Source of the DNA: Dasania marina DSM 21967
Lineage (GTDB): Bacteria; Pseudomonadota; Gammaproteobacteria; Pseudomonadales; Dasaniaceae
Direction of reading: 5' to 3'
Length of the DNA: 64,000 nt
NCBI RefSeq assembly: GCF_000373485.1
Contig: NZ_KB891575.1
Location: 232,528-296,527, forward strand
Shown here piece by piece: positions 16,713-62,734 of this stretch. Below the pieces are notes generated by a model. The model saw nothing but the letters and a program-made list of their open reading frames with translations, was not told the origin of the DNA and did no database searches. Both the position numbers and the translations under genes were made by a program. The stretch's first letter is position 1; every line of letters starts with the position of its first letter.

Positions 16713-16786
16713 AGCTACAAGCAGCAAGCCTCAAGCTATAAGCCAACCCTCTTGAAGCTTGAAGCTTGCAGCTTGCCACTTATAGC
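16713..16786. repeat. 7-base periodic repeat array, AGCNNCA family, inverted pair
   Basis: Five heptads (16713-16747: AGCTACA, AGCAGCA, AGCCTCA, AGCTATA, AGCCAAC) are followed after four bases by five heptads of the complementary type (16752-16786: TTGAAGC twice, TTGCAGC, TTGCCAC, TTATAGC). The two arms can pair as an imperfect hairpin. It lies between the HD-GYP gene end and tex, and is part of the window-wide heptad family. Confidence 0.75.
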
Positions 16787-16899
16787 TGCCCCTTCCCCCT
16801 AGCACTTTTTTTTTACCGCAACAAGCTGCCCAGCGCCCTATGAATTCTGCATAATGCGCCTTTATTCTCCATGCCTAATAACAGAGCGTCAGTATCCTC

Positions 16900-19245
16900 A
16901 TGAGCAGTATTTTTCAACGTATCTCTGCAGAACTATCCATACAGCCCCAGCAAGTTAGCGCCGCCGTAGGCCTGTTAGATGAAGGTGCCACGGTGCCTTT
17001 TATCTCCCGTTACCGTAAAGAAGTTACCGGAGGCCTAGATGATAGCCAAATGCGTAACCTGGAAGAGCGCCTGCGCTACCTGCGCGAAATGGAAGACCGG
17101 CGCGCAGCCATATTGAAAAGCATAGAGGAACAGGGCAAGCTCAGCCCTGAGTTAGCCAGCGACATTCATGCTGCCGACACCAAAAACCGCTTAGAAGATT
17201 TATACCTACCCTATAAAAAGAAGCGCCGCACCAAAGGCCAAATCGCCATAGAGTCGGGCCTAGAGCCGCTAGCCGAGGCACTGCTAGCCAATCCCACCCT
17301 AGCTCCCGAAGTGGAAGCCGCTAACTATATAGACGCCGATAAAGGCGTAGCCGATATTAAATCCGCTTTAGATGGCGCCAAGTACATATTAATGGAACGC
17401 TTCAGCGAAGACGCCAACCTCATCAGCCAATTGCGTAGCTACCTGTGGGAATTCGGCACCATGAGCAGCCGCATGAACGAAGGTAAGGAGCAGGAAGGCG
17501 AGAAATTCCGCGATTACTTTGAGCACGACGAGCCCATCAAACAAGTACCCTCGCATCGCGCCCTAGCTATGTTCCGCGGCCGCAATGAAGGCATGCTGAA
17601 TTTAAACATCGTGGTGGGCGACCCTAAAGAGGCCGCTAATGCAAAAACCGCCACCCACCCCTGTGAAGTCATGGTCGCCAAACACTGGACCATAGAAGAT
17701 CACGATCGCGCCGCCGACAAATGGCTGCGCGAAGTGGTGCGCTGGACGTGGCGCATTAAGCTCTACACCCATTTAGAAACCGATTTAATGGGGCAGGTTC
17801 GTGAGAGTGCCGAAGAAGAGGCCATCAAAGTATTTGCCAACAACCTAAAAGACTTATTACTGGCAGCACCGGCTGGCGCTAAAGCCACTATAGGCCTAGA
17901 CCCTGGCCTGCGCACCGGCGTTAAGGTGGCCGTAGTCGACGCCACCGGCAAAGTGCTAGACCACACCGCCATCTACCCCACCCCGCCACAAAATAAAATT
18001 GCCGCATCCGCCGCCGTGCTGATTAAATTTGCCGAAAAGTACAACGTGGAATTAATCGCCATAGGCAACGGCACCGCCAGCCGCGAAACCGATGCCTTTG
18101 TCGGTGATATTATTAAAGCGCGCCCCGATTTGGGCCTGAAAAAAGTCATCGTCAATGAAGCGGGTGCCTCCATTTATTCCGCCTCTGAATTTGCCTCTAA
18201 AGAATTCCCCGACCTAGACGTGACCATACGCGGCGCCATTTCTATTGCTAGACGCCTACAAGACCCTCTAGCCGAATTGGTAAAAATCGAGCCTAAAGCC
18301 ATAGGTGTAGGCCAATACCAACACGATGTTTCACAAACCCAACTGGCCCGCTCACTGGACGTGGTAATAGAAGATTGTGTAAACGCGGTAGGGGTAGATA
18401 TTAACACCGCCTCCAGCCCACTGCTAAGCAGAGTATCCGGCTTAAGCAGTAGCCAGGCCAATAAAATAGTTGATTACCGCGACGCCCACGGCGCGTTTAC
18501 CAAGCGGGAAGATTTAAAAAATATTAAAGGCTTTGGTGACAAGGCCTTTGAACAAGCCGCCGGGTTTTTACGTATTATGAACGGCGACAACCCACTAGAT
18601 GCCTCAGCGGTACACCCCGAGTCATACAGCGTGGTTGAAAAAATTGTGTCGCAACATAATATGCCCGTTAAAAACATTATGGGTGACAACCAATTCTTAA
18701 AAAGCCTAGATCCAAGCCAATTTACCGACGAAACATTTGGCCTACCCACAGTCACCGATATTATCAGCGAGTTAGCTAAGCCCGGTCGCGACCCGCGCCC
18801 TGAATTTAAAACCGCCGAACTCAAAGCCGGCATAGAAAAAATCTCTGACCTCAAGCCCGATATGATTTTGGAAGGCACCATCACCAACGTCACCAACTTT
18901 GGCGCCTTTGTGGATGTAGGCGTACACCAAGATGGCCTAGTGCATATTTCGGCACTGTCTGACACCTTTATTAAAGACCCGCGCGAAGTGGTGAAAGCCG
19001 GCGACATAGTTAAAGTAAAAGTGATGGAAGTGGACGTACAGCGCAAACGCATAGCCATGAGCATGCGCCTAACCGACAAGGCCGGTGAAGATAACCGCGC
19101 CGATAGAGGTAGCCAGCAAGATCGCAGCGGCGCCAACGTGAAAGCCCAGCGCCAGCAGCAACAAAAACAACAGCAAGCCCCCAGCAACAGCACCTTGGCC
19201 GACCTATTTAAAAACGCCAAAGTGAAACAGGGCAAGCGTTTATAA
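16900..19245 (+). CDS. tex: Tex family RNA-binding transcription accessory protein
   Basis: This 781-residue protein is near the usual Tex length (~785). It has an N-terminal helical Tex region ([17 protein letters not shown] near residue 32), a YqgF-like RNase H domain (~330-450, starting [10 protein letters not shown]), helix-hairpin-helix motifs (~495-560, [14 protein letters not shown]) and a C-terminal S1 RNA-binding domain (~650-720, [16 protein letters not shown]). The tail is rich in Gln. It acts in the cytoplasm on RNA and transcription and is conserved across bacteria. It is followed by an intrinsic terminator. Confidence 0.96.
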
Positions 19246-19293
19246 TATAATCGTCAAAAACTGCAGCAACAAACTGGATAGCTTAACGATGAT

Positions 19294-19324
19294 CAAGCTC
19301 TTACTTAGGTAAGGGCTTTTTTAT
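19294..19324 (+). terminator. intrinsic terminator after tex
   Basis: An AGCTCTTAC / GTAAGGGCT stem with loop TTAG is followed by a run of T (19317-19322). It is 50 bases past the tex stop. Confidence 0.8.
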
Positions 19325-19373
19325 TGCCTAAGAAATTTGGTTTGAACTTTACAGTTTACTTGCATCGATGACT

Positions 19374-19790
19374 GAGCCGGATACCGCCGCTACATGGTCT
19401 GGCCCCTCCCCCCTTTACCTAAAAAACGCCCGCGTCCGCTACTGAGCCTTAAGGCGCTGCGCTGTCTCATCCGCTACCACGGCCAGCCCTTTTATATTCC
19501 GCGACAGCATCCGACCCACCCCTCTAGCATCGTGCGTGTTTTATTTTCACACAAAGAATATGCACCGTGATGTCACTGCGATAGGCAGGTAATGACGCAA
19601 GGTTATTGCGGAATATAAAAGATGAGCGCTGAAGGAACGAATGAGACCGGCAGCTTTCCCCGCAGGGGTGCCGGGCTCAGGCGAGAGTGAAGGCAGCCCG
19701 GAGGGCCGCCATCATGCAGCAATGACCTTGGGCCATTACCGGGTTAAAAAACCATACCCAGACCAACAGATAACCTCTTGTTTTCGGTTT
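19374..19790. repeat. large palindromic repeat element, copy 1
   Basis: This is the first of two direct copies spaced 471-473 bases apart. The core is a perfect 14-bp inverted repeat, CTTTTATATTCCGC at 19489-19502 and GCGGAATATAAAAG at 19608-19621, around a ~105-base centre. Flanks on both sides remain partly complementary for over 100 bases (for example GTCTCAT on the left, ATGAGAC on the right). No convincing protein is encoded: the short frame inside it at 19641-19925 looks incidental. Confidence 0.8.
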
Positions 19791-19844
19791 TTAACGACGA
19801 GGGACGACTTGGGCCAATACAATGGTTTACTAACACCGAGGGCC

Positions 19845-20240
19845 GAGCCGGATACTGCCGCTACATGGTCTGGCCCCTCCCCCCCTTTACCTAAAAAGAC
19901 GCCCGCGTCCGCTACTGAGCCTTAAACCGCTGCGCTGTCTCATCCGCTACCACGGCCAGCCCTTTTATATTCCGCGACAGCATCCGACCCACCCCTCTAG
20001 CATCGTGCGTGTTTTATTTTCACACAAAGAATATGCACTGTGACGCCACTGCGATAGGCAGGTAATGGCGCAAGGTTATTGCGGAATATAAAAGATGAGC
20101 GCTGAGGGAACGCCTGAGACCGCCTTGCTTTCCCCGCAGGGGAAGACTGGCTTAGGCGAGAGTGAAGGCAGCCCTCCCCCCCCTGCAGGACAGCGCCGCC
20201 ATCATGAAGTAATAGCCTTGCGCCATTACCGAGTAAAAAC
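19845..20240. repeat. large palindromic repeat element, copy 2
   Basis: This second copy of the element has its 14-bp arms at 19962-19975 and 20081-20094. It is nearly identical to copy 1 across the left flank and centre, with scattered substitutions and small indels in the right flank. The two copies fill the spacer between tex and the convergent yajG gene. Confidence 0.8.
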
Positions 20241-20262
20241 TTTTAACTTAAAAACAAACCAT

Positions 20263-20311
20263 CTAGCGACTAGCGACTAGCGACTTCCAACTAGCGACTG
20301 TTAGCTGTTAC
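20263..20311. repeat. 7-base periodic repeat array, CTAGNNN family, entering yajG
   Basis: Heptads in perfect phase: CTAGCGA three times, CTTCCAA, CTAGCGA, CTGTTAG, CTGTTAC. The last two lie inside the end of yajG and encode its final residues and stop codon. Confidence 0.75.
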
Positions 20312-20879
20312 TCAAAAACGCCTTCACTTTAGGGTCATTCAAGGCACGTTGCAACGTTTGCGACAACACCTTATTAATTAATTTTTCATTAGTCGCCGCG
20401 GTAGGCTTAATCACTAACTGTTGGCTAATCGCGCTTTTATAAACACCGCTATGGTTTTTTTCAGCTACGTTAATTTCAACACGTAACACCGCTAATAAAT
20501 TCACTTTTGCAGTCACAGTATCTTTATCGTTTTCATACGTTAGCGTATCAACGATAACCTTAACTGTGGCCGCTGGCGGCTGATCACTATCCACCGAAAA
20601 ACCTTGCTGGCGCAAACCCGCTTTCGCCGCCTTTACCATCGCTTCGCCAACATCATTAGCCGGGGTAATTAAACTAGTACCGGGGTAAGCACCACCACGA
20701 CTACCTATAGCTTTATTGCTACGCTGATCTTCAGCCAACACTGCCACAATGCGACCCTGGCCATAAATATCATCAGCCACCTCTAGCTCAGGCTGTATCA
20801 TTACTTGTTGTGGGCTATAAGCACAAGCTGCCATAGCGGCTGCAGCGATGACTAGTAGTAATTTTTTTACACTTAACAT
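20301..20879 (-). CDS. yajG: YajG family lipoprotein
   Basis: This 192-residue protein has a lipoprotein signal peptide (lipobox AAAC near residues 16-19, then AYSPQQVMIQPEL) and a YajG-like domain. The function of the family is not established; it is an envelope lipoprotein. The gene is followed on the minus strand by heptad repeats that form its last codons. Its start lies 11 bases after the stop of the DUF2333 gene, so they are probably one operon. Confidence 0.85.
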   Translation of the reverse strand: MLSVKKLLLVIAAAAMAACAYSPQQVMIQPELEVADDIYGQGRIVAVLAEDQRSNKAIGSRGGAYPGTSLITPANDVGEAMVKAAKAGLRQQGFSVDSDQPPAATVKVIVDTLTYENDKDTVTAKVNLLAVLRVEINVAEKNHSGVYKSAISQQLVIKPTAATNEKLINKVLSQTLQRALNDPKVKAFLSNS

Positions 20880-20890
20880 TGTTATACCTT

Positions 20891-21913
20891 TTAACCGTTG
20901 GTTAATAATTCACGCAATTCAATAATAGAAGCATTGGCCCGTGAAATATACGAGGCCATTACCAAGGAGTGGTTGGCTAATAAACCAAAGCCATCACCAT
21001 TTAATATCATGGGGCTATACACAGCGTCTTGGGTACTCTCTAGCTCGCGTATAATTTGCTGCAAGCTCACTCGTGCATTCTTCTTCGCTAACACATCAGC
21101 AAAATCTATTTCTACCGCTTTTAAAAATTGAATTAATGCCCAGCTGGTACCACGCGCCTCGTAAAACACATCATCAATTTTTAGCCAAGGGGTTTTAATT
21201 TCCATCTCTTCTGGGCCAACGAGATATTGCTTAGCATCTGTGGAACCCGCCAAATCGGTATTTAACCGGCGCTTGCCGACACTGGCACTTAAGCGCTGCG
21301 ACAAACTACCCAAACGTGACTCTACGGTTTGCAGCCAATAATTCAAGTTATCAGTGCGGGCATAAAACTTTGCCGCGGACTGACTTTGGCTTTGTAAACT
21401 GGCCAAATATTTTTCTAACTGTTTGATGCCGTTGCGATACTCGGATTCCGAAGCGGGCACCGCCCAACTATTATTGGAGAAATTCAAACTGGGCTCAGCC
21501 TTAGCCAAAGACCTATTTTCAGTCGACTGGGTTTGCGAACGACTGAAACTTTCACGCATAGCCTTGGCTAAATCGCGCACCTGTATCAACACCCCATATT
21601 CCCAGTTGGGAATATTATCCAACCATACACCAGGCGGCAGAATGTCATTAGAAATAAAGCCACCGGGCTTAGACAGCAAGGTATCAGCAACACGAATTAA
21701 ACTTTCGGTAGTGGCCGTACCCACTACGGCACTGGCCGCTCTCTGGCTAGGTAAACCCTCAGGCTCTGATGACCAAAAAAAGCCCATCACTAGCGCAGCC
21801 AATAAATAAAGCGCCAACAGTAGCGGCGCAAAACGCCACAGGCCTTCGCCCATACCCTCCAGCGCCCGCTCTTTTTGTTCTTGATAATACTCTTTAACAC
21901 CCTGCCAATTCAT
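20891..21913 (-). CDS. DUF2333 family membrane-anchored protein
   Basis: This 340-residue protein has one N-terminal membrane helix (~residues 27-49, after NWQGVKEYYQEQKERALEG) and a long helical periplasmic region. The whole length fits the DUF2333 family found in Pseudomonas and relatives; its function is unknown. It sits between the PCu(A)C gene (13 bases upstream) and yajG (11 bases downstream), so it is likely co-transcribed with both. Confidence 0.8.
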   Translation of the reverse strand: MNWQGVKEYYQEQKERALEGMGEGLWRFAPLLLALYLLAALVMGFFWSSEPEGLPSQRAASAVVGTATTESLIRVADTLLSKPGGFISNDILPPGVWLDNIPNWEYGVLIQVRDLAKAMRESFSRSQTQSTENRSLAKAEPSLNFSNNSWAVPASESEYRNGIKQLEKYLASLQSQSQSAAKFYARTDNLNYWLQTVESRLGSLSQRLSASVGKRRLNTDLAGSTDAKQYLVGPEEMEIKTPWLKIDDVFYEARGTSWALIQFLKAVEIDFADVLAKKNARVSLQQIIRELESTQDAVYSPMILNGDGFGLLANHSLVMASYISRANASIIELRELLTNG

Positions 21914-21926
21914 AATTTACCCTAAC

Positions 21927-22388: not shown

Positions 22389-22391
22389 AGT

Positions 22392-23117: not shown

Positions 23118-23207
23118 TAAAAATTACTATACAATAAACCCTTAATAGATAAGGCTTGTCACCATAACGGGTAAGCCACCATCATAAAACAGCGCAGCGG
23201 GTGTTTC

Positions 23208-25742: not shown

Positions 25743-25798
25743 CGCTCACGTCACCTTAAGCCCTCCACACTAACAACACAGCGAATAGAGAGCCCCCC

Positions 25799-33830: not shown

Positions 33831-34000
33831 GACTAGGGGTGCCCTTTCTTTTGGTTCTGCTTTCTTTGGGCAAGACACAAATTGCAAAGCAATTTGGACG
33901 CCTGCTTTGCAAAGGCGCCCGAAGGGTGAAAAAATGCGAAGAGCATTTTTGAATCAAAGAAAATGAACTCGCCCAAAAGGGCGAAACCTTTACTAAAGTA
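33831..34000. repeat. dispersed intergenic repeat of the CCCTTTCTTTTGGTT type
   Basis: GGGGTGCCCTTTCTTTTGG, then CTTTCTTTGGGCAA, and at the other end AAGAAAATGAACTCGCCC form an imperfect long inverted repeat. Similar sequences recur between genes in many gammaproteobacteria and are often mis-annotated as small proteins. Here a frame on the minus strand over 33833-34174 is such an artefact. Confidence 0.5.
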
Positions 34001-34177: not shown

Positions 34178-35458
34178 ATGAATGTGTTAATCATTGGTTC
34201 CGGCGGCCGCGAGCACGCCCTAGCGTGGAAAGCAGCCCAATCAGCAGACGTAAAAACTGTATACGTAGCACCCGGCAATGCCGGTACCGCCACCGAAGCC
34301 AAATGCGCTAACATCGCTATAGACACCATGGACTTTGCTGGCCTAGCTACCTTTGCCGAACAAAACAAGGTCGGCTTAACCATAGTCGGCCCAGAAGCGC
34401 CATTAGTAGAAGGCGTGGTGAATTATTTTCAAGATCGCGGCTTACGCTGTTTTGGCCCTTCCAAAGGTGCGGCGCAATTAGAAGGTTCTAAAGCCTTCAC
34501 TAAAGATTTTTTAGCGCGCCACAACATCCCCACCGGTTACTACCAAACCTTTACCGATATCGATGAGGCGCTAGCCTACATCAACAAAAACGGCGCCCCC
34601 ATAGTCATCAAAGCCGACGGCCTAGCCGCAGGTAAAGGCGTTATCGTCGCCATGACTACAGACGAAGCCGAAGAAGCTGTACGCGATATGTTAGCGGGCA
34701 ACGCCTTTGGCGAAGCTGGCCACCGCGTGGTGATTGAAGAGTTTCTCGAAGGCGAAGAGGCTAGCTTTATCGTGATAGTAGATGGTAAAAATGTATTAGC
34801 CATGGCCACTAGCCAAGATCACAAGCGGGTAGGTAATGGCGACACCGGGCCTAACACTGGCGGCATGGGTGCTTATTCACCAGCACCGGTGGTTACACCA
34901 GAGATACACAACCGCATCATGAAAGAAGTGATAGAACCTACCGTCGCCGGCATGGCCGCCGAAGGTAACGACTACACGGGCTTTTTATATGCAGGCTTAA
35001 TGATAGCCGCCGATGGCACACCCAAAGTGATTGAATACAACTGCCGCTTTGGCGACCCAGAAACGCAACCCATTATGCTGCGCCTACAAAGCGACTTAGT
35101 AGCACTGTGTAACGCTGCCCTAGATAAGCAATTGGATAACACCACCGCCGAGTGGGATAACCGCGCTGCGGTGGGTGTGGTGCTAGCCGCTGGCGGCTAC
35201 CCCGCCGACTACCAAAAAGGCAAAGCCATTAGCGGCATACCTGCAGGCAACAACAGCGAAAAAGTTTTTCACGCAGGCACCAAGTTAGACAACGGCCAAG
35301 TCGTTACCAGCGGCGGCCGCGTACTTTGCGCTACAGCTTTGGGCAATACGGTTACCGAAGCACAGGCTGCCGCCTATGCTCAAGTTAAACAAATCCAATG
35401 GGATGGTGTTTTTTACCGCGACGATATAGCCTACCGAGCTATTGCTCGTGAAAAATAG
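34178..35458 (+). CDS. purD: phosphoribosylamine-glycine ligase
   Basis: This 426-residue GAR synthetase of normal length has the N-terminal NVLIIGSGGREHALAWK, IVGPEAPLVEGVV, the ATP-grasp segment IVIKADGLAAGKGVIVA, MATSQDHKRVGNGDTGPNTGGMGAYSP and EYNCRFGDPE. It joins glycine to phosphoribosylamine in purine synthesis. purD is separated from purH by about 727 bases of repeats, although the two genes are normally adjacent, so insertion or expansion of repeats in that spacer is likely. Confidence 0.97.
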   Translation: MNVLIIGSGGREHALAWKAAQSADVKTVYVAPGNAGTATEAKCANIAIDTMDFAGLATFAEQNKVGLTIVGPEAPLVEGVVNYFQDRGLRCFGPSKGAAQLEGSKAFTKDFLARHNIPTGYYQTFTDIDEALAYINKNGAPIVIKADGLAAGKGVIVAMTTDEAEEAVRDMLAGNAFGEAGHRVVIEEFLEGEEASFIVIVDGKNVLAMATSQDHKRVGNGDTGPNTGGMGAYSPAPVVTPEIHNRIMKEVIEPTVAGMAAEGNDYTGFLYAGLMIAADGTPKVIEYNCRFGDPETQPIMLRLQSDLVALCNAALDKQLDNTTAEWDNRAAVGVVLAAGGYPADYQKGKAISGIPAGNNSEKVFHAGTKLDNGQVVTSGGRVLCATALGNTVTEAQAAAYAQVKQIQWDGVFYRDDIAYRAIAREK

Positions 35459-36159: not shown

Positions 36160-36187
36160 AGCGGCAAGCTGCAAGTTATAAGCGCGA
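36160..36187. repeat. 7-base periodic repeat array, AGCNNCA family
   Basis: Four heptads in phase: AGCGGCA, AGCTGCA, AGTTATA, AGCGCGA, directly after the coq7 hairpin. Confidence 0.65.
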
Positions 36188-36230: not shown

Positions 36231-36584
36231 ATGGAAATATATTGTTTAATAGATAGCCATGATTTTGCTGAGGAAATAGCCCCCCAGCTAGCGGCAATAG
36301 AAACGGCTATCACTGAATGGCTAACAGAGAGTCGCAGCAGTGCAACCGTTTATAAAGATATAGAGGGCGAACAGCCTTTTATAGGTTTGCGCATAAACAC
36401 TAATCGCAAGCTCACCCTAAAAAAGCCCATAGACTTTCTCTACAGCCTAAGCCAAGAACATAAGTTTGAATGCGTAGTAGGCCTAATAGAAAACGAGCAA
36501 CATGAAGACGTATGCTATTTCGGCAGCGAAGAAGGCGCGCCAGATATAGGCGAAATCGCCAGCTATCTAGGGCTAGAGAAGTAG
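36231..36584 (+). CDS. hypothetical protein
   Basis: This 117-residue acidic protein has no signal peptide or membrane helix and I do not recognise a family. The sequence alternates helices and strands (IYCLIDSHDFAEEIAPQLAAIETAI; later FECVVGLIENEQHEDVCYF). It lies between coq7 and the convergent OsmC-like gene and is flanked on both sides by heptad arrays, one of which starts directly after its stop. It uses a normal ATG; a good ribosome site is not obvious. It could be a small cytoplasmic lineage-specific protein. Confidence 0.6.
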   Translation: MEIYCLIDSHDFAEEIAPQLAAIETAITEWLTESRSSATVYKDIEGEQPFIGLRINTNRKLTLKKPIDFLYSLSQEHKFECVVGLIENEQHEDVCYFGSEEGAPDIGEIASYLGLEK

Positions 36585-36688
36585 CTAGTCTCTAGTCTCT
36601 AGTCTCTAGTCTCTAGTCTCTAGTCTCTAGTCTCTAGTCTCTAGTCTCTAAAAGTTTTTCCTAGCGACTAGCGACTGTCAACTAGGAA
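36585..36688. repeat. 7-base periodic repeat array: CTAGTCT x9, then CTAGNNN units reaching the OsmC-like gene
   Basis: Nine perfect copies of CTAGTCT occupy 36585-36647. After 13 bases the phase-locked heptads CTAGCGA, CTAGCGA, CTGTCAA and CTAGGAA occupy 36661-36688. The last one holds the stop codon of the OsmC-like gene (36682-36684). The array fills the whole spacer between two convergent genes. Confidence 0.9.
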
Positions 36689-37104
36689 CTTTCTTTAACT
36701 TCATAGCTGTGGGTCACTTCCACCCCAGCCGCTTCCATCATAATAGAGGCCGAGCAGTATTTTTCTGCCGATAGCGATACCGCCCGTTTGATCTGGGCTT
36801 CTTTTAAATTGTGGCCCGTCACTACAAAATTCATATGAATTTTGGTGAATACCGCAGGCACGGCATCGGCCCTCTCGGCCTCCAACTCAGCCACGCAGCT
36901 CTGCACGTCTTGCCGCGATTTCTTAAGCATACTGAGCACATCAAAAGAGGCGCAGCCGCCCATGCCCATAATCAGCATTTCCATGGGCCTTGGACCTTTG
37001 TTTTGGCCGCCTAAATCTGGCGGGCCATCCATAGTGACCTTATGGCCAGTCCCAGACTCGGCGATAAAGCTAACGCCCTCATCCCAGCTCACTGTTGCTT
37101 TCAT
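36682..37104 (-). CDS. OsmC family protein
   Basis: About 140 residues, with the OsmC/YhfA-like architecture: GTGHKVTMDGPPDLGGQNKGPRPMEML, the conserved peroxidatic Cys in MGMGGCASFDVL, and the second conserved Cys in KYCSAS. OsmC proteins reduce organic hydroperoxides with two cysteines. The YhfA branch is less well defined. The start is the ATG at 37104 (MKATVSW); a longer frame to 37200 is not supported by the family. Confidence 0.88.
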   Translation of the reverse strand: MKATVSWDEGVSFIAESGTGHKVTMDGPPDLGGQNKGPRPMEMLIMGMGGCASFDVLSMLKKSRQDVQSCVAELEAERADAVPAVFTKIHMNFVVTGHNLKEAQIKRAVSLSAEKYCSASIMMEAAGVEVTHSYEVKESS

Positions 37105-37289: not shown

Positions 37290-37925
37290 GTGGTCAGCGT
37301 TGCCCTAACTCCTCATATTGAAAATGTTGATTTTTTTCTCAACCATTGCCATAAACGCCGCTACCCCGCTAAAAGCACAATTATCTATGCGGGCGATTCT
37401 AGCGATTCGCTTTACTATATTATCGATGGCTCCGTTACCGTCTTAATTGAAGATGACGAAGGCAAAGAGATGATAGTCGCCTACCTCAACAAGGGTGACT
37501 TCTTTGGTGAGATGGGCCTGTTTGATAACCAAGAATCACGCAGTGCTTGGGTAAGAGCCAAAACCGAATGTGAAGTAGGGGAAATCAGCTACGCCAAGTT
37601 TCACGAACTCAGCGAGCAAAACCCTGAATTTTTATTGGCGGTAGGCACGCAGATGGCCAAGCGCCTGCGGGAAACCACCCGTAAGGTCGGCGACCTAGCC
37701 TTTTTAGATGTTACCGGCCGCGTAGCGCGCACCCTGCTAGACCTATGCAAACAACCCGACGCCATGACCCACCCCGACGGCATGCAAATTAAAATCACCC
37801 GCCAAGAGATAGGTCGCATCGTAGGCTGCTCACGGGAAATGGTTGGCCGAGTATTAAAAACGCTGGAAGAGCAGGGTTTGGTTAATGTGAAGGGCAAGAC
37901 TATGGTAGTGTTTGGGACGCGTTAA
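37290..37925 (+). CDS. vfr: CRP/Vfr family cyclic-AMP receptor transcription factor
   Basis: This 211-residue protein is very close to Pseudomonas Vfr (214 residues). The cyclic-nucleotide-binding domain (~15-120, with [10 protein letters not shown] and [12 protein letters not shown]) precedes a long dimer helix and a C-terminal HTH ([20 protein letters not shown]), ending KTMVVFGTR. It starts with GTG after AAGAAGG. It is a global cAMP-dependent regulator. It is convergent with trpC, with a strong shared terminator between them. Confidence 0.93.
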
Positions 37926-37930
37926 AAACC

Positions 37931-37979
37931 AAGCTGTAAGCTGTAAGCTGTAAGCTGTAAGCTGTAAGCTGTAAGCTGT
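37931..37979. repeat. 7-base tandem repeat AAGCTGT x7
   Basis: Seven perfect copies begin five bases after the vfr stop. The inverse-type array at 38047-38081 lies on the other side of the terminator, so the two arms flank it. Confidence 0.9.
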
Positions 37980-38003
37980 AAGAAATTTTGAATATATAAA
38001 ACA

Positions 38004-38040
38004 AAAAAGGCCAGCGTTTAGTGAAACGCTGGCCTTTTTT
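38004..38040. terminator. bidirectional intrinsic terminator between vfr and trpC
   Basis: GGCCAGCGTTT / AAACGCTGGCC (11-bp stem, loop AGTG) is flanked by an A-run on the left and a T-run on the right. It serves as a terminator for both convergent genes. Confidence 0.95.
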
Positions 38041-38046
38041 GTTTGC

Positions 38047-38081
38047 TTGCAGCTTATAGCTTGCCGCTTTCCGCTTCGAAG
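38047..38081. repeat. 7-base periodic repeat array overlapping the end of trpC
   Basis: Heptads TTGCAGC, TTATAGC, TTGCCGC, TTTCCGC and TTCGAAG in one phase, the complementary type of the 37931 array. They encode the trpC stop (38054-38056) and the residues just before it (EAESGKL). Confidence 0.7.
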
Positions 38082-53349: not shown

Positions 53350-53382
53350 ATAGCCCAAAACTGTAAAACAGATGAGCACACT

Positions 53383-54213
53383 ATGACCCGCTACGCTGTA
53401 GGCGATCTACAAGGCTGTTTAAAACCTCTGCAGTGTTTGCTGCAAAGGGTGGATTTTAAGCCGCAACAGGATCAACTCTGGCTGGTGGGTGACTTAATCA
53501 ACCGCGGCCCCGAATCTTTAGCGACGCTACGTTTTTTAAAATCTTTGGGCGACTGCACCCGCATAGTCTTGGGCAACCACGACTTACATTTTTTAGCCAT
53601 CGCCTATGGTACTTCTACCCCTAGACCTCACGATACTCTGGATGAATTATTACAGGCCCCCGACCGGGATGCGTTAGTGGCTTGGTTAATTCAGCAGCCG
53701 TTAATGCACCGCGACCCCTGCGGCGATTACTGCATGAGCCACGCCGGCATTGCACCGCAGTGGTCTATAGCCGAGGCCGAAGGCTACGCACGCGAAGTAG
53801 AGCAGATTTTACAAAGCGATAAGGCCATCGAATTTTTTAAGCATATGTATGGCAACAACCCAGCGGGCTGGCAACAGGATTTACAGGGCTGGCCGCGCTA
53901 CCGCACCATCACCAATTATTTTACCCGCATGCGCTACTGCGGCCCTCAAGGCGAGTTAGATTTAAACAACAAAAGCAATATCGCCCCGGCAAACTTTCAC
54001 CCGTGGTTTAGCCACCCACTGCGCAGCACTCAGCAACAACAAATCATCTTTGGCCACTGGGCAGCGCTACAAGGAAAAACCAACAGCGATAATATTTTTG
54101 CCCTAGACACCGGCTGCGCCTGGAAAGGGCATATGTCATTAATGAACTTAGAAACACAACAAATAGAAATCTGTGATTGTGGGGAAGACCAGTCTCTAGT
54201 TCCTAGTTCCTAG
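53383..54213 (+). CDS. apaH: diadenosine tetraphosphatase (symmetrical)
   Basis: This 276-residue metallophosphatase has GDLQGCLKPL, GDLINRGPESLATL, GNHDLHF and SHAGIAPQW. It splits Ap4A to two ADP. The last residues (SLVPSS) and the stop codon come from the CTAGTTC repeat array, so the natural C-terminus of this protein has been altered or extended by the repeat. Confidence 0.95.
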   Translation: MTRYAVGDLQGCLKPLQCLLQRVDFKPQQDQLWLVGDLINRGPESLATLRFLKSLGDCTRIVLGNHDLHFLAIAYGTSTPRPHDTLDELLQAPDRDALVAWLIQQPLMHRDPCGDYCMSHAGIAPQWSIAEAEGYAREVEQILQSDKAIEFFKHMYGNNPAGWQQDLQGWPRYRTITNYFTRMRYCGPQGELDLNNKSNIAPANFHPWFSHPLRSTQQQQIIFGHWAALQGKTNSDNIFALDTGCAWKGHMSLMNLETQQIEICDCGEDQSLVPSS

Positions 54214-54339
54214 TTCCTAGTTCCTAGTTCCTAGTTCCTAGTTCCTAAAATCTTTACTAGCGACTAGCCGCTGTCAACTGCTTTCTGCCGTTCATCTAGC
54301 GACTAGAGACTATCAACTAGTGACTTTTCTAACTAGAGA
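54196..54339. repeat. 7-base periodic repeat array: CTAGTTC x7 plus degenerate CTAGNNN units
   Basis: Seven perfect CTAGTTC copies (54196-54244) are followed by CTAGCGA, CTAGCCG, CTGTCAA, CTGCTTT and CTGCCGT (54257-54291), then CTAGCGA, CTAGAGA, CTATCAA, CTAGTGA and CTTTTCT (54296-54330), and CTAGAGA at 54333-54339. It enters both convergent genes: apaH on the left and the LysE-type gene on the right (its TAG stop is 54333-54335). Confidence 0.85.
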
Positions 54340-57485: not shown

Positions 57486-57501
57486 ACTTAAAACAGCATT
57501 C

Positions 57502-57527
57502 AAAGGGCGCTACGGCGCCCTTTTTTA
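57502..57527 (+). terminator. intrinsic terminator after the TonB receptor
   Basis: AAGGGCGC / GCGCCCTT stem with a 4-base loop and a following T-run, starting 17 bases after the stop. Confidence 0.9.
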
Positions 57528-57568
57528 TTGCCAGTTTTTTATCCTCAAGGAATAAGCCAAGCATAAAG

Positions 57569-57603
57569 CTAGCGACTATAGACCAGCGACTGTAAACTAT
57601 CCC
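57569..57603. repeat. 7-base periodic repeat array before cca
   Basis: CTAGCGA, CTATAGA, CCAGCGA, CTGTAAA, CTATCCC in phase, ending two bases before the cca ATG at 57606. It therefore occupies the ribosome-binding region. Confidence 0.7.
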
Positions 57604-57605
57604 CC

Positions 57606-58700
57606 ATGAAAATTTACTTAGTCGGCGGCGCCGTACGCGATACTTTATTGGGTTATCCCTTTCACGAACGTGATTGGGTGGTCGTCGGTGGCACCCCACA
57701 ACAACTACTAGCCCAAGGCTACCAACAGGTGGGCAAAGACTTTCCGGTTTTTTTACACCCGAAAACAAAAGAGGAATATGCGCTGGCGCGCACTGAGCGC
57801 AAAAACGGCCAGGGCTATACCGGCTTTGCCTGCTACAGCGCCCCCGATGTTAGCTTGGAAGACGACCTGCTGCGACGCGATCTAAGCATAAATGCCATCG
57901 CTCAAGATGAGCAAGGCAACATCATAGACCCTTACAATGGCCAGCAAGATATAGCCGCTAAAAAACTGCGCCACGTGTCGACCGCCTTTGCCGAAGACCC
58001 TTTGCGCGTTTTACGCACCGCCCGATTTTTAGCGCGCTACTATCACCTAGGTTTTACGGTTGCCGATGAAACCCTGCAACTCATGCAGCAGCTTAGTGAT
58101 AGCGGTGAATTAACCCAGCTTAGCCGCGAACGTATTTGGGTAGAAACCGAGAAAGCCTTGCACGAGCAGTCGCCAGAGCAATATTTTTTATGCCTGCAAC
58201 ACTGCGGTGCCCTGCAGCAACTCTACCCCACTATGCCCGCGCTAACGCCGCAAAGTGTGCAGCGCCTGCAACAGGCACGTAAAACCTGCAATAGCAGCCA
58301 GCTGTTTGCCTTGCTGTTTTATCAAGCTGAAAGCACCAACTTACTCAAGCAACTTAAAAGTATAAAAGTACCTAACGAAGTTTCTGAGCTTTGCCAATTA
58401 CTACAACAACACGCCGACTTAGTACTTGCCGAACAACTCAGCGCCGAGCAAATATTACTGTTACTACAACACTGCGATGGCTATAGACGCGGACAACGCT
58501 TTGCTGATTTTTTACATTGCTGCCAACAAATAAACAGCCATAACCAAGCCTATAAACTCAAGCAGGCTTTAACACTATGCCTATCGGTTGATGCCAAAGC
58601 GCTAGCGGCGCAGGGCCTCAGCGGTAAAGATATAGCCCAAGCTATACAGCAACAACGATTAGCCATAGTTAGCAATATGCTTAGCGAGACAGCGCCATGA
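57606..58700 (+). CDS. cca: tRNA nucleotidyltransferase (CCA-adding enzyme)
   Basis: This 364-residue class II CCA-adding enzyme starts KIYLVGGAVRDTLLG, with catalytic carboxylates in ERDWVVVGG and the RRDLSINAIA and DPLRVLRTARF motifs. It lacks the C-terminal HD domain of the ~410-residue E. coli enzyme, as is common in other gammaproteobacteria. It repairs the tRNA 3' end. It overlaps the next gene by four bases. Confidence 0.94.
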   Translation: MKIYLVGGAVRDTLLGYPFHERDWVVVGGTPQQLLAQGYQQVGKDFPVFLHPKTKEEYALARTERKNGQGYTGFACYSAPDVSLEDDLLRRDLSINAIAQDEQGNIIDPYNGQQDIAAKKLRHVSTAFAEDPLRVLRTARFLARYYHLGFTVADETLQLMQQLSDSGELTQLSRERIWVETEKALHEQSPEQYFLCLQHCGALQQLYPTMPALTPQSVQRLQQARKTCNSSQLFALLFYQAESTNLLKQLKSIKVPNEVSELCQLLQQHADLVLAEQLSAEQILLLLQHCDGYRRGQRFADFLHCCQQINSHNQAYKLKQALTLCLSVDAKALAAQGLSGKDIAQAIQQQRLAIVSNMLSETAP

Positions 58701-59443
58701 ACAACCCTCCCGTAGCCCTTATCACCGGCGGCGCCCAGCGCATAGGCGCAGTAATATGCAAAGCCTTGCACGCACAAGGTTTTAATATTGTTGTTCATTA
58801 CAAAAGCTCAAAACAGCAGGCCACAGACCTTTGTAATGAGTTAAATACAGGCCGCCGTAACTCAGCCATTAGCCTTGCCGCATCTTTAGATAACCACAAC
58901 GCTATTAAAAACGTAATCGAACAGGCCGCCTTACAATGGGGCCGCTTAGACGCACTGGTTAACAATGCCTCTAGTTTTTACCCCACGCCCATAGCCAATG
59001 CTAGTGAGCAACAATGGGATGATTTATTCAACAGTAATGTGAAAGGTGCATTTTTTTTTAGTCAGGCCGCGGCACCGTACCTACAAAAAAATAAAGGCTG
59101 TATCGTCAACATCGTCGACATACACGCACAAAAACCCTTAAAAGAACACAGCCTGTATTGCATGGCAAAAGCAGCGCTGGCCATGATGACGCAAACTCTA
59201 GCCAAAGACCTACCCCCCGTACGCGTCAACGGCGTCGCCCCCGGTGCCATACTCTGGCCAGAGCAACAGGGCGCAAGCGTACTCAGCGATAAAGAAAAAC
59301 AACAAATCACCCAAAAAATCCCCTTGGGCCGCAGCGGCTGCCCAGAAGATATCGCTAATACGGTGTTGTTTTTAATCAAAGACGCGCCCTATATTACCGG
59401 GCAAATTATTAGCGTAGATGGCGGGCGTAGTTTGGGAATGTAG
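58697..59443 (+). CDS. folM: pteridine reductase (FolM-like SDR)
   Basis: This 248-residue SDR carries a pteridine-reductase-type dinucleotide motif TGGAQRIGAVI, NNASSFYPTP, the active-site Tyr-x-x-x-Lys (YCMAK) and VAPGAILWP. It reduces dihydromonapterin or dihydrofolate. It is translationally coupled to cca and convergent with folK and folB, so the region forms a folate/pterin cluster. Confidence 0.85.
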   Translation: MNNPPVALITGGAQRIGAVICKALHAQGFNIVVHYKSSKQQATDLCNELNTGRRNSAISLAASLDNHNAIKNVIEQAALQWGRLDALVNNASSFYPTPIANASEQQWDDLFNSNVKGAFFFSQAAAPYLQKNKGCIVNIVDIHAQKPLKEHSLYCMAKAALAMMTQTLAKDLPPVRVNGVAPGAILWPEQQGASVLSDKEKQQITQKIPLGRSGCPEDIANTVLFLIKDAPYITGQIISVDGGRSLGM

Positions 59444-59470
59444 TTATCAGCGCCTTTGGCGCTGATAACT
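59442..59470 (+). terminator. stop-codon-overlapping hairpin after folM
   Basis: AGTTATCAGCGCC and its exact complement form a 13-bp stem with loop TTT, starting inside the folM TAG. No T-run follows; a heptad array follows immediately, as after coq7. Confidence 0.5.
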
Positions 59471-59473
59471 ACA

Positions 59474-59549
59474 AGAGGTAAGCCGCAAGAGGCAAGCATC
59501 AAGAAAAAACACTCTTATAGCTTGCAGCTTATGGCTTACAGCTTCGTTT
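59474..59549. repeat. 7-base periodic repeat array, AGCNNCA family, inverted pair
   Basis: Left arm 59474-59508 (AGAGGTA, AGCCGCA, AGAGGCA, AGCATCA, AGAAAAA) and right arm 59515-59549 (TTATAGC, TTGCAGC, TTATGGC, TTACAGC, TTCGTTT). The right arm contains the folK stop codon (59536-59538). Confidence 0.7.
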
Positions 59550-60039
59550 CATTCCATTCAAAATCTACCGGCCATAATTTTTGGCTAGCCTGATCATATT
59601 GCTGCCACAGTTGCTGATAGCTTTTATGCGTCGTGGGGTGTAGCTGATTCGGGGCTATGTTGTATAGCGGTAATAGCACAAAGGCATTGTCTAAAATTTC
59701 AGTGCGAGGCAGTAGCACACCATCAACGTCGCCCACCATATCATCGACGGTGAGTATATCGATATCCAGCGTACGCGAGCTAAATTTAGGGCCGCCGCGC
59801 TTGCGGCCATAATCATCTTCTATTTGTTTGAGCAAGGCCTGCAACTCACCCACCGAGTAAACACTTTCAAAACCGACCACTAGGTTGAGAAAATTATCAC
59901 CCTCAAAACCTACCGCTACGCTTTCATACACGGGTGAAATGATCAGCTCACCAAAGTAGTGCTGCAGCGCATCTAACGAAGAAGCTATGTGGTGGTAGCG
60001 ATGAGTGTTGCTGCCTATGCTCACAAATACTTGTGACAT
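59536..60039 (-). CDS. folK: 6-hydroxymethyl-7,8-dihydropterin pyrophosphokinase
   Basis: About 167 residues: the HPPK fold with VFVSIGSNTHRY at the start (ATG 60039), NFLNLVVGFES, and the metal-binding RTLDIDILTVDD plus LPRTEILDNAFVLLPL. It activates hydroxymethyldihydropterin for folate synthesis. It follows folB by one base. Its last residues (ETKL) derive from the heptad array. Confidence 0.93.
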   Translation of the reverse strand: MSQVFVSIGSNTHRYHHIASSLDALQHYFGELIISPVYESVAVGFEGDNFLNLVVGFESVYSVGELQALLKQIEDDYGRKRGGPKFSSRTLDIDILTVDDMVGDVDGVLLPRTEILDNAFVLLPLYNIAPNQLHPTTHKSYQQLWQQYDQASQKLWPVDFEWNETKL

Positions 60040-60040
60040 G

Positions 60041-60394
60041 TTAGCGTTCGCCTCGCTCGATAATGACACCCACATCTCTGGAGCCACGCACCGCGCCGGG
60101 CTTGCTAACCTGCAGCTTAAGCCAAGGCACTTTAAACTCTTCGCGTATAATTTGTGCGCACTGCTCGGCCATGGTTTCTACCAATAAAAATTCGCTGGCC
60201 TCAATAAATGCAATTAAGCGCTTGGCCACTGCCTTGTAGTTTAAGGTGTGCGCAATGTCGTCAGTGGCCGCCGCTTGACGTATGTCGTGGCCCATTTCTA
60301 CATTCAAGCTAACGGTTTGTTTAATTTCACGTTCCCAATCATAAATACCGATGGTGGTTTCTATACATAAGTCGCGTATATAAATGATATCCAT
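60041..60394 (-). CDS. folB: dihydroneopterin aldolase
   Basis: About 117 residues with the FolB signatures DIIYIRDLCIETTIGIYDWE, VSLNVEMGHDI and LLVETMAEQCAQII (the catalytic Glu/Lys region, with KLQVSKPGAV at the end). It converts dihydroneopterin to hydroxymethyldihydropterin. The ATG at 60394 matches the family start. Confidence 0.93.
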   Translation of the reverse strand: MDIIYIRDLCIETTIGIYDWEREIKQTVSLNVEMGHDIRQAAATDDIAHTLNYKAVAKRLIAFIEASEFLLVETMAEQCAQIIREEFKVPWLKLQVSKPGAVRGSRDVGVIIERGER

Positions 60395-60456
60395 ATTGAA
60401 TCCTGTTACTTGCACTGTAGGTTGGTAGTTTAATAAATAGGTAAATAGCTAGGTAA

Positions 60457-61485
60457 TTAAATAGCGCTGAGTTGGTCCATAGGCCAGCGTGGTCGTGTTT
60501 TTACCGCCAAACCATCTTGTTGCCCAGCCACCAAACGCTGGCAACCGGCGTAGGCAATCATGGCGCCGTTATCGGTACAAAACTCTGGCCGCGCATAAAA
60601 CACCTGCGCTTTAATTTTTGCCAGCGCAGTGGCTAAATCGGCACGCAGTTTTTTATTGGCACTGACGCCACCGGCTATCACCAATCGCTTTAAGTCTTCT
60701 TGCTGCAGTGCACGCTTACACTTAATGACCAAGGTGCTGACCACCGCCTGCTGAAAGGCACAGGCGATATCTGCCTGAGTTTGTGCATCCAGCTCGCCCT
60801 GTTCATTTTTATGTTTGTTCACCGTGTTTAGGGTAAATGTTTTTAAGCCACTAAAACTGAAATCCAACCCTGGATGCTTCACCATGGGGCGGGGGAACTC
60901 AAAACGGCTGTTATCACCCTGCTCTGCCAACTTAGCCACCATAGGGCCACCGGGGTAGGTTAAGCCCAACATTTTGGCCGCTTTATCAAAGGCTTCACCG
61001 GCAGCGTCATCGAGAGATTCACCCAATAATTTATATTGGCCGATACCGTCCACCCGCACTAATTGGGTGTGGCCGCCGGACACTAATAAGGCAATAAACG
61101 GGAACTCGGGGGGGTGATCTTCCAACATGGGGGCTAGCAAGTGGCCCTCCATGTGGTGCACGCCTATGGCAGGCACCTGCAAGGCATAGGCTAAGCCTCG
61201 GCCTATCATGGCCCCTACCATTAAAGCGCCCACCAATCCGGGGCCTGAGGTATAAGCCACGGCATCGATGTCGCTACGGCCTAGCCCGGCTTCGACTAAC
61301 ACCTGCTCAATTAACGGTAAGGTTTTGCGTATATGATCACGCGAAGCCAGCTCTGGCACCACGCCACCGTATTCGGCATGTATTTCAATTTGGCTGTACA
61401 AGGCTTCTGCCAACAGGCCCTGCTCGCTGTCGTACAAGGCTATGCCGGTTTCATCACAGGAGGTTTCTATACCCAATACACGCAT
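60457..61485 (-). CDS. tsaD: tRNA N6-threonylcarbamoyladenosine synthase subunit TsaD
   Basis: This 342-residue protein starts [13 protein letters not shown], has the metal-binding HHMEGHL motif near residue 112, [12 protein letters not shown], and [17 protein letters not shown]. It completes the t6A37 modification of tRNA. The start is the ATG at 61485. It is divergent from rpsU, the standard arrangement. Confidence 0.96.
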
Positions 61486-61692
61486 TACAGGCCTCAATAC
61501 CGTGTTTAATATGACGGAATAGCGCCTTAATACGCTAAAACGCTAGTGCCGCGAATGATACTGGCTATACTGCCCCCAAGCCAGCACCTTCAGGGAAAAG
61601 GCTATTTTCCCGGCCCAAATGCCTATTTCCTAGGCCAAAGGCCCTTTTCACTGCCCGCGGCGCCTAGCTCAGCGTTAGTAGATCATTAGGCT
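61486..61692. other. intergenic region between tsaD and rpsU
   Basis: No gene is seen. It holds short inverted repeats, for example GGGAAAA/TTTTCCC near 61593-61611 and TTTGGCC-type repeats at 61613-61650, of unknown role. Confidence 0.35.
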
Positions 61693-61721
61693 TTGCATTT
61701 TATTCACCTTCCGAATATAAT
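61693..61721 (+). promoter_or_regulatory. sigma70 promoter of rpsU
   Basis: TTGCAT (61693-61698), a 17-base spacer, and TATAAT (61716-61721) make a near-ideal promoter 80 bases before the rpsU start. Confidence 0.8.
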
Positions 61722-61730
61722 GCCGCCCCC

Positions 61731-61764
61731 TTGCATTGGGTGGTTAAGCACTAACCGCGTGCAA
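61731..61764 (+). promoter_or_regulatory. structured 5' leader of rpsU
   Basis: TTGCA/TGCAA outer arms and GGTTA/TAACC inner arms (loop AGCAC) can fold in the transcript between promoter and start codon. It is a candidate leader for ribosomal-protein autoregulation; the role is unproven. Confidence 0.4.
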
Positions 61765-61801
61765 TACGAATTTCATATCAACACAGACATAGGTAGGCCA
61801 A

Positions 61802-62017
61802 ATGCCTTCAGTTAAGTTAAAAGAAAACGAGCCATTCGATATCGCTCTACGTCGCTTCAAGCGCTCTTGTGAAAAAGCCGGCGTTTTAGCCGAAGTACGT
61901 CGTCGTGAATTTTACGAGAAGCCTACATCAGTACGTAAGCGTAAAGCTGCCGCTGCTGTTAAGCGTCACGCTAAAAAAGTTTCTCGCGAAAGCAAAAAGC
62001 ACCAGCGTTTATATTAA
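61802..62017 (+). CDS. rpsU: 30S ribosomal protein S21
   Basis: This 71-residue basic protein is a full match to bacterial S21 ([40 protein letters not shown] and a Lys/Arg-rich tail). It binds the 30S platform and helps translation initiation. rpsU precedes yqeY and dnaG, the macromolecular synthesis operon arrangement. Confidence 0.99.
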
Positions 62018-62049
62018 GCAACTGCTTAACTATCGTTGATAGTTGTAAA

Positions 62050-62086
62050 CACCCCTAGGCCACTTGGTTTGGGGTAGGTTTTTTAG
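62050..62086 (+). terminator. intrinsic terminator or attenuator after rpsU
   Basis: ACCCC and GGGGT arms (CCTA/TAGG overlapping) are followed by a T-run at 62079-62084. It may lower read-through into yqeY and dnaG, as in the classical rpsU-dnaG operon. Confidence 0.6.
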
Positions 62087-62125
62087 CACTGTACCGCCCA
62101 CACTTTTAAAAAGGCTGGCCATACG

Positions 62126-62575
62126 ATGACTGAGCAAACGCTTAAAGCTCGTATTAAAGACGAAATGAAAGCGGCCATGAGGGCCAAGGCTAAACAGCGC
62201 CTGACAACTATTCGGTCTATACAGGCCGAGGTCAAACGCATAGAAGTTGATGAGCGCATAGACGTCGACGACGCACGCCTATTGGCCGTGCTAGATAAAA
62301 TGTGCAAGCAACGCCGTGACTCTATACAGCAGTTCACCGATGGTGACCGCATCGATCTCGCAGAGATTGAACAAGCGGAAATGCTGATCATCCAAGAGTT
62401 TCTGCCCGCGCAACTCAGTGAAGACGAGATAAAAATCCTCATCACCGACGCTATTGCCAGCACGGGCGCCGCCGGCATGCAAGACATGGGCAAAGTGATG
62501 GGCGTGCTAAAGCCCAAGCTACAAGGCCGTGCTGATATGGGTGCTGTGAGTAAGCTAATCAAAGCTAGCTTTTAG
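62126..62575 (+). CDS. yqeY: GatB/YqeY domain protein
   Basis: This 149-residue helical protein has the YqeY features: LKARIKDEMKAAMRAKAKQRLTTIRSI, FLPAQLSEDEI and MGKVMGVLKPKLQGRADMGAVSKLIK. Its C-terminal domain resembles the tRNA-binding tail of GatB. Its function is not settled. It is in the conserved slot between rpsU and dnaG. Confidence 0.93.
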   Translation: MTEQTLKARIKDEMKAAMRAKAKQRLTTIRSIQAEVKRIEVDERIDVDDARLLAVLDKMCKQRRDSIQQFTDGDRIDLAEIEQAEMLIIQEFLPAQLSEDEIKILITDAIASTGAAGMQDMGKVMGVLKPKLQGRADMGAVSKLIKASF

Positions 62576-62734
62576 CTAGCAGTCGCTAGTACGTAGTCTC
62601 TAGTCTCTAGAAAAGGCTACCACCCCAAAATAATTTCACATCACGACACCCTGCCCCCTAGAAGCCCGCAATAGAATCTAGAATTCTAGCGACTGACATC
62701 TAGGAACTAGCGACTATCCTCTGTAGACTTCCCC
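62576..62734. repeat. 7-base periodic repeat arrays between yqeY and dnaG
   Basis: A degenerate array at 62576-62610 (CTAG units at 62586, 62600 and 62607) and a phase-perfect one at 62686-62734 (CTAGCGA, CTGACAT, CTAGGAA, CTAGCGA, CTATCCT, CTGTAGA, CTTCCCC), ending four bases before the dnaG ATG. Confidence 0.75.

Follow-up and report, generated by a model that had tools for sequence, protein, structure and literature searches.

The window analysed here is a 64-kb stretch of the genome of Dasania marina (contig C1, positions 232528-296527; the genome, G000, has 4.10 Mb in 18 contigs). Between its genes lie tracts with a period of seven bases, which consist of inverted arms of heptads. Some arms are degenerate, others are uniform arrays, and as judged from sequence the start of a uniform array tends to lie a few bases downstream of the -10 box of a sigma70-like promoter directed into the array. 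We tentatively propose, with somewhat less than even confidence, that the tracts are dispersed non-coding gene-end elements in which the arm downstream of the promoter is driven to expansion by slippage through transcription initiation. What the sequence itself shows is the heptad consensus, the inverted pairing of arms of the same type, their location next to stop codons, the constraint on positions 1 and 2 of the unit, common sites at which length, unit and type change, and a statistical association of uniformity with promoter-like sequence.

Among lags of 2 to 30, period 7 gave the most segments (21 with 1846 bp in 464 kb of G000), followed by lag 12 (13 segments with 618 bp). When the 256 tetramers were scored for recurrence at seven bases in 574 kb, CTAG (26), GCTT (24) and AAGC (21) were at the top, the median being 1. 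A unit profile found 231 arms in the heptad-arm sample of 1.78 Mb (1,777,832 bp from two Dasania-type genomes: 1,080,754 bp of G000 and 697,078 bp of G001, a second genome of the same genus used as comparison); at the same score it found 5 in the reversed sequence and 8 with 8-base spacing. After overlaps had been resolved, 201 arms of the raw set were left. Since the profile was seeded with CT[AT][GA], only positions 5-7 being free, positions 1-4 are conserved in it by construction; the support for these four positions comes from the tetramer recurrence and from the cross-species mismatches given below, not from the profile itself.

The arms share a single heptad consensus, CTWRNNR, which together with its reverse complement gives YNNYWAG ... 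CTWRNNR, read from the inside outward. The units are of two types, C (CTAGNRA) and A (CTTRYNG), from which individual units deviate. Adjacent arms form left-right inverted pairs in 49 cases and right-left pairs in one, and 46 of the 49 are matched in type. The two unit families described in the sequence-only reading thus hold as two types that replace each other at the same sites, but they fall under one consensus and are not separate. Single Ns or runs of N were seen inside long arrays (L028 3083, L031 1958-2002 and 10630, L055 1360), and the length of 28 units of the array at L031 1881-2079 includes such a gap; the Ns probably reflect assembly uncertainty or a mixture of lengths.

On the inner side of many arrays, and directed toward the array, lies a sequence resembling TTGAC[AT]-N16-18-NANAAT. 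The link was measured with a generic E. coli-like sigma70 score, the -10 box ending 0-5 nt from the array and the side being preset from the orientation of the unit, on 48 distinct arrays of at least four units, a set that includes loci fetched for holding arrays. The preset side had a median score of 6.6 and the opposite side one of 0.4 (Wilcoxon p = 1.6e-8). Compared with random intergenic sites, 18/48 arrays were at or above the 99th percentile on the preset side, where 0.5 were expected, and 3/48 on the opposite side. With 0-14 nt and either side allowed, the best -10 ended 0-5 nt from the array in 40 of the 48, and TTGACA or TTGACT stood in the place of the -35 box in 14. Copy number was correlated with the score on the preset side (rho = 0.50, p = 3e-4; 0.007 on the other side).

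The degenerate arms served as internal control. From the 201 arms, 15 that lay inside open reading frames or close to the end of a sequence piece were dropped, leaving 186, namely 30 array arms and 156 degenerate arms. The 99th percentile of the control scores was reached by 11/30 array arms and by 0/156 degenerate arms, the 95th percentile by 16 and 4, respectively. The difference persists in each genome (p = 2e-10 and p = 0.039), without the arms bearing TTGAC (19 versus 155 arms, p = 1.7e-4) and with the AT content removed (p = 7e-9). By eye, promoter cores look related beside arrays of different unit; at L028 9981, L032 and L064, however, the -35 box lies inside a local hairpin (by eye), which argues that the link is not solely due to common descent. 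A 25-nt conserved core was considered as a mobile unit and rejected: it has two copies genome-wide (at most 3 mismatches), and the wider "core" is the promoter. A profile of the promoter only gave 12 matches with E < 0.5, all of them copies from the training set; behind the next match (E 0.9) there are no heptads.

The comparison of G000 with G001 comprised 168 pairs of syntenic junctions, of which 23 hold arms in either genome and 20 of these 23 in both. At common sites the copy number differs (27 versus 8, 12 versus 6), the unit may differ by one base throughout (AGTCGAT in G000, AGTCGCT in G001), and orientation and type can switch (several junctions; L069 versus L043 by eye). Local expansion of each array, as the sequence-only reading had it, is supported by these changes in length, which it had suggested looking for between strains. 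Identical copies, common sites, changing copy number and one-base changes of the unit point to slippage.

For the constraint on single positions, units were chosen on one genome only and aligned without gaps. With G000 as reference, the mismatch was 6% at each of positions 1 and 2 (together 10/154), 21% at position 3 and 23-43% at positions 4-7 (103/308); with G001 as reference, it was 17% and 16% (29/172), 28% and 28-45% (135/344). Aligned unoccupied syntenic spacers mismatch at 28.6%. Thus CT is under constraint and W under a mild one at most; the remaining positions change at about the neutral rate or faster.

This constraint on positions 1 and 2 would also be expected if the arrays were kept by selection because, as operators or attenuators, they hold an antisense promoter at the gene end silent, stronger promoters retaining longer arrays. 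The silencing could be exerted via a heptad-binding protein of the ribbon-helix-helix sort or by self-damping as at hmw1A. The promoter link allows either initiation as the trigger or selection of promoter-damping arrays, since the correlation of length with score fits both. There are precedents in the available parts of two reports: the heptads of plasmid pSM19035 bind one dimer per 7 bp and overlap promoters (PMC9499535), and at hmw1A more heptamers lead to less transcription (PMC8262952). Operators, however, need not be identical by letter, which array units are, and about 27 copies exceed the 7-10 repeats of the pSM19035 sites. We prefer driving by initiation, since uniform arrays repeat even those letters that vary freely in degenerate arms; selection we regard as unlikely, although it deserves to be taken seriously.

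The switches of type and the half-replacements at fixed sites, together with the related-looking cores beside arrays of different unit, led us to consider a mobile element like a MITE (miniature inverted-repeat transposable element) carrying promoter and minisatellite, as in BrickBuilt of Porphyromonas, which lands at gene ends and replaces older copies, so that promoter and array travel together. One core with its right arm is indeed present in G000 and missing in G001 at the same junction (C12 291775). But occupation of 20/23 junctions in both genomes is unlike free hopping, there is no clean empty site among the 23 (target duplications were checked by eye only), some array promoters lie in the local hairpins mentioned above, and neither G000 nor G001 has an RVT_1 reverse transcriptase. 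We consider a mobile origin clearly improbable. A reverse-transcriptase origin of the arrays, considered because their anatomy is tail-like, was rejected: RVT_1 (PF00078) is absent from G000, G001, G007 and G008 and was found only in G006 among 10 genomes.

An origin by a REP-type (repetitive extragenic palindromic) transposase was rejected as well. Y1 genes are present, but, by eye, different sequences (TCTGACCCC; GGGGTCGTAACG) form the ends of the inspected copies, and heptad arms are either lacking there or lie hundreds of bases off, which also speaks against the mobile element. No arm was found in L197, L198 and L200; L199 has one about 700 bp from its Y1 gene, and in L180 the nearest is about 0.9 kb away. 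The inspection took in L180 and L197-L200, and left out a partial match on contig C7 of G000 and most matches in G007. Two of these REP-type (Y1) transposase genes, L198 1171-1869 and L180 ~11900-12750, are bounded by different inverted ends (TCTGACCCC; GGGGTCGTAACGATTATTTTT), and the latter has a partial duplicate of its own start. In both Dasania-type genomes the same 25-bp sequence, TGATGTGACCCACATAAAACGGACA, adjoins a heptamer array near a contig end (L061 1093-1190 and L076 80-190). It is probably the end of an insertion sequence, as if this favoured heptad tracts.

With respect to genes, called with our own simple hexamer-score caller and uncurated, arms occur in 49/196 convergent, 62/1115 tandem and 4/196 divergent junctions of any size (convergent versus tandem p = 5e-15). 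This is the enrichment at convergent junctions that the earlier reading had made the test of its claim. For spacers of at least 60 bp the numbers are 46/122 (38%), 58/565 (10%) and 4/195 (2%), and for the first G000 sample alone 20/62, 20/348 and 1/61, respectively. A stop codon is faced by 135 of the 178 arms in junctions (median distance 6 bp) and a start codon by 43 (median 58 bp); 23/201 arms lie outside called junctions. Single arms of tandem junctions are 27 times sense and 12 times antisense. Uniform arrays face a stop codon in 29 of 33 oriented rows (27/31 distinct; two are cut by N, and 6 of 39 rows are unoriented).

That the arms adjoin stop codons could mean that the inverted pairs act as RNA hairpins which end or stabilise transcripts. 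In keeping with this, the pairs form more stable folds than shuffled sequences do (28 degenerate pairs, median z -3.1; 20 pairs with a uniform arm, -4.4). There is, however, no covariation between left and right arms at their variable positions (A type, n = 11; p = 0.17 in register and 0.94 at the best offset; only the A-type part of this test was used because the palindromic CTAG arrays had been counted on both strands). Also, terminator-like hairpins are equally frequent in occupied and empty junctions (convergent 16/37 versus 27/56, tandem 10/50 versus 82/443), which argues against the heptad elements as a replacement of terminators and makes a hairpin function highly improbable.

In the window the nine intergenic regions named in the sequence-only reading were all found, and three of them are exact arrays. 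Tandem Repeats Finder (TRF) gave a row of period 7 or period 14 in 7/9 regions; it misses those at 36160 and 57569, and also the arm at 38047. The period had been called exact. This is true of the phase and not of the unit, because five regions (16713, 36160, 57569, 59474 and 62576) are degenerate. From our independent gene calls, 5 of the 7 convergent junctions contain a tract, the same count as before. The features are the following.

16712-16743 (left arm, AAGC units) and 16750-16781 (right arm, GCTT units): degenerate A-type pair, adjoining the stop of the gene ending at 16697.
20262-20293, plus strand: C-type arm of CTAGCGA units (CTAGCGA runs over 20263-20299) in a convergent junction.
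36166-36183, plus strand: short degenerate A-type left arm in a tandem junction.
36585-36650: uniform C-type array, CTAGTCT x9.4, beginning right after the stop codon that ends at 36584.
36653-36681, minus strand: promoter-like sequence pointing into the CTAGTCT array, with -35 TTGACA at 36676-36681 and a poor -10, AAAACT at 36653-36658 (17-nt spacer) or AAAAAC at 36654-36659 (16 nt).
36661-36689, plus strand: degenerate C-type right arm, which includes the -35 box.
37931-37982: uniform A-type array, AAGCTGT x7.4, 5 bp past the stop codon ending at 37925; the adjoining promoter-like sequence is only weak (score 5.7).
37999-38044: intrinsic terminator-like hairpin separating the two arms of the element 37931-38076.
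38045-38076, plus strand: degenerate A-type right arm, the partner of the AAGCTGT array.
54196-54247: uniform C-type array, CTAGTTC x7.4, into which the end of the gene 53383-54213 extends.
54249-54277, minus strand: promoter-like sequence pointing into the CTAGTTC array, with -35 TTGACA at 54272-54277 and -10 AAGATT at 54249-54254 (17 nt) or AAAGAT at 54250-54255 (16 nt).
54259-54326, plus strand: degenerate C-type right arms.
57569-57603, plus strand: degenerate C-type arm preceding the gene that starts at 57606; it aligns in register with Dasania sp. GY-MA-18.
59472-59544: degenerate A-type pair (left arm ~59472-59504, right arm 59513-59544); compared with Dasania sp. GY-MA-18 the right arm is identical and the left arm different.
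62583-62720: degenerate C-type pair (left arm 62583-62610, past the gene ending at 62575; right arm 62686-62720).

For lptD of the window the nearest named relative is from Dasania sp. GY-MA-18 (86% amino-acid identity, best segment); the taxonomy used for Dasania was Spongiibacteraceae, Gammaproteobacteria. None of the arrays searched with Rfam (5 sources) carries a family match. Elsewhere in the window there is a thiamine pyrophosphate (TPP) riboswitch (69 bits; 15253-15369, minus strand), upstream of the minus-strand gene 13113-15176, and a match to AaHKsRNA22 (33869-33967, plus strand; 44.8 bits, gathering threshold 39.8), upstream of a gene at 34178 with phosphoribosylglycinamide synthetase domains. 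A cobalamin riboswitch lies on the same contig as the window (L026 5373-5527, minus strand).

Beyond the two Dasania-type genomes, arrays of four CTAG units are found in 4/10 genomes of the family and AAGC arrays in 4/10 (G000 counted), and four AAGCNNY units in 4/274 genomes of the class (G000 counted). CTT recurring six times at seven bases is found in 97/293 genomes of the order, the reversed control pattern being common too. Many-unit heptamer arrays are thus widespread; the promoter geometry is not. A narrow promoter pattern gave one match in three heptamer-rich genomes. In G258, which belongs to another family, TTGACA-N16-NATNAT stands between two heptamer arrays in 5 of 15 loci picked for CTT arrays (L217, L218, L273, L278 and L284). 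The period-7 identity there is 1.00 ahead of the promoter and 0.97-1.00 behind it, the arrays being GTGAAAG-like behind and CTTACCG, TTCACTA or TGCTAAC in front, and in 4/5 the next long downstream open frame is on the promoter strand. In family f212 the anatomy of a gene end can match that in Dasania (L289: stop codon, CTGCAAG x17, spacer, CTTGCAG x4). G470, G469, G435 and G504 have about 100 or more matches each to the CTT or reversed-CTT period-7 patterns, with other unit families.

The commonness of such arrays, most of which outside Dasania and G258 have no promoter, is what ordinary heptamer slippage would give, in which the replication machinery is biased toward steps of 7 bases and the products are tolerated in intergenic DNA, the likeness to promoters being a by-product. 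A polymerase bias of seven bases has been proposed (cited in the available part of PMC4692102). Degenerate arms, however, are unlike decayed arrays, since positions 1 and 2 are retained; there is a bias for convergent over divergent junctions, and the promoter link survives both the AT correction and the degenerate-arm control. Ordinary slippage we consider very improbable.

A number of observations weigh against the proposal that initiation drives the expansion. A promoter is not required for every array, since 14/30 array arms are under the 95th percentile and the ten lowest score at most 5.7, and over all 186 arms run length correlates more weakly with the score (rho = 0.29). The counts of arrays are not independent because, by eye, many of the TTGAC cores are copies related to each other. 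Among orthologous pairs with equal orientation, the better promoter was that of the longer array in 4/5 (p = 0.19, not significant; one G000 array is cut by N and, read whole, agrees too), and in a sixth pair, of opposite orientation, the order is reversed (28 units with score 3.7 versus 19 units with 11.6). In the window the two arrays with a perfect -35 have a poor -10, the third has only the weak site, and a strict consensus promoter scan calls neither 36653-36681 nor 54249-54277. Unit position 3 is only mildly constrained (mismatch 16/77 and 24/86).

The other genomes add to this. In G258 the array behind the promoter is uniform too, though that promoter would not transcribe it, and the CTT chains, taken together, show no excess of score over the other side (p = 0.17). 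Arrays of other genera reach the 99th percentile in 3/38 cases, two of them in G258 (median score 4.1 versus 1.6, the control including coding DNA). None of 9 chains of family f212 scores above 3.0, which is background, and in G007 and G008 1/12 arrays reaches 6.6 on the predicted side, with the other side reaching up to 9.8.

In the mechanism that we favour, degenerate arms, which are constrained and look functional, would be the ground state, and the arrays would be local expansions of one arm, favoured at a transcription start. The promoters at the array edges, as predicted from sequence, would be active and would send antisense transcripts into the gene toward whose stop codon the array is turned. 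Antisense initiation near terminators has been reported in E. coli and Bacillus subtilis (PMC6978322, available part), from which a supply of promoters at gene ends is expected. When the DNA is opened at the start site, or when a replication fork stalls there, the strands may mispair in the inherited steps of 7 bases; the conserved CT may be read by a putative protein, and a grown array is predicted, by analogy with hmw1A P2, to damp its own promoter. In a more far-reaching version, initiation is the motor of repeat growth: the edge sigma70 promoter pumps a degenerate tract uniform, the array then throttles this antisense promoter, and dozens of gene ends carry self-tuning switches, as again in a second gammaproteobacterial family. 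This version we consider doubtful.

The sequence-only reading, that a common mechanism rather than chance underlies the tracts, is partly supported: the period of seven stands out from other lags, the tracts are one family and local expansion is borne out, but the reading is incomplete in that it lacks the promoter-like edge, the constrained positions 1-2 and the switching of types. Reports of heptamer arrays exist for several bacteria; the literature examined does not settle why particular tracts expand. In Dasania expanded and unexpanded tracts can be separated, on average, by one neighbour, a promoter-like sequence at a fixed distance. Transcription-driven repeat expansion can thus be tested in a bacterium with 156 degenerate arms as internal control, and a number of gene ends are predicted to carry variable antisense promoters. 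Among the literature matches listed, which included few subscription journals, none dealt with these units, with repeats in Dasania or, apart from hmw, with heptamer arrays linked to promoters, and there was none for six longer repeat strings or for Dasania together with tandem repeat.

Among known systems, REP sequences and bacterial interspersed mosaic elements (BIMEs) with their TnpA-REP are dispersed inverted repeats between genes without heptad phase. The Dasania elements are likewise dispersed intergenic inverted repeats, but they have the heptad phase, and the inspected Y1 genes sit between other ends. The published systems that follow are compared on the basis of the available parts of the reports. 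BrickBuilt, a MITE of Porphyromonas gingivalis, is similar in being an intergenic tandem array with leader, tail and promoter elements; it has a 23-nt unit in 19 copies and small inverted-repeat ends (PMC4596501), whereas in Dasania only inverted arms were seen. The Omega/ParB heptads of pSM19035 are 7-10 consecutive 7-bp repeats overlapping promoters and, in this, alike; their consensus is WATCACW and their function plasmid partition (PMC9499535), and the units listed for the 48 Dasania arrays do not match it. Like marine Beggiatoaceae with TAACTGA, Dasania is a gammaproteobacterium with many sets of intergenic heptamers (MacGregor, 2015; PMC4679880). TAACTGA is one fixed unit, in the genome described there in two to six copies, mostly just upstream of start codons (PMC4679880), is missing from the list of 48 arrays, and contrasts with the Dasania arms, which mostly face stop codons.

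The heptamers of Xanthomonas and Nostoc are also intergenic 7-nt tandem units close to stop codons on the sense strand (PMC4692102; in Dasania 135/178 junction arms, median 6 bp), and sites common across species with changing length are a further likeness (20/23; 27 versus 8 and 12 versus 6 copies). Their units, GGGAATC and GGGGAYT, form G-quadruplexes and prefer four copies, and the available part of the report gives no promoter link (Rehm, 2015; PMC4692102). The Dasania family differs by its CTW consensus, by its two types and by arrays that lie next to promoter-like sites and reach a length of about 27 units; GGG occurs in none of the 18 unit types listed for the 48 arrays. Promoter P2 of hmw1A in Haemophilus influenzae has a heptamer array that overlaps its -10 box and forms part of the transcribed 5' leader; the copy number of the array varies, and more copies give less transcript (PMC8262952). 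In Dasania a subset of the arrays, the 18/48 at the 99th percentile, is predicted to lie against or across the -10 box of promoters that transcribe them. At hmw1A this concerns one promoter region of an adhesin gene, whereas the Dasania family is dispersed over gene ends, mostly faces stop codons and has an opposed degenerate arm. Heptamer repeats, and one heptamer array overlapping a -10 box at hmw1A, are already known; the link between arrays and promoters across a dispersed family is new.

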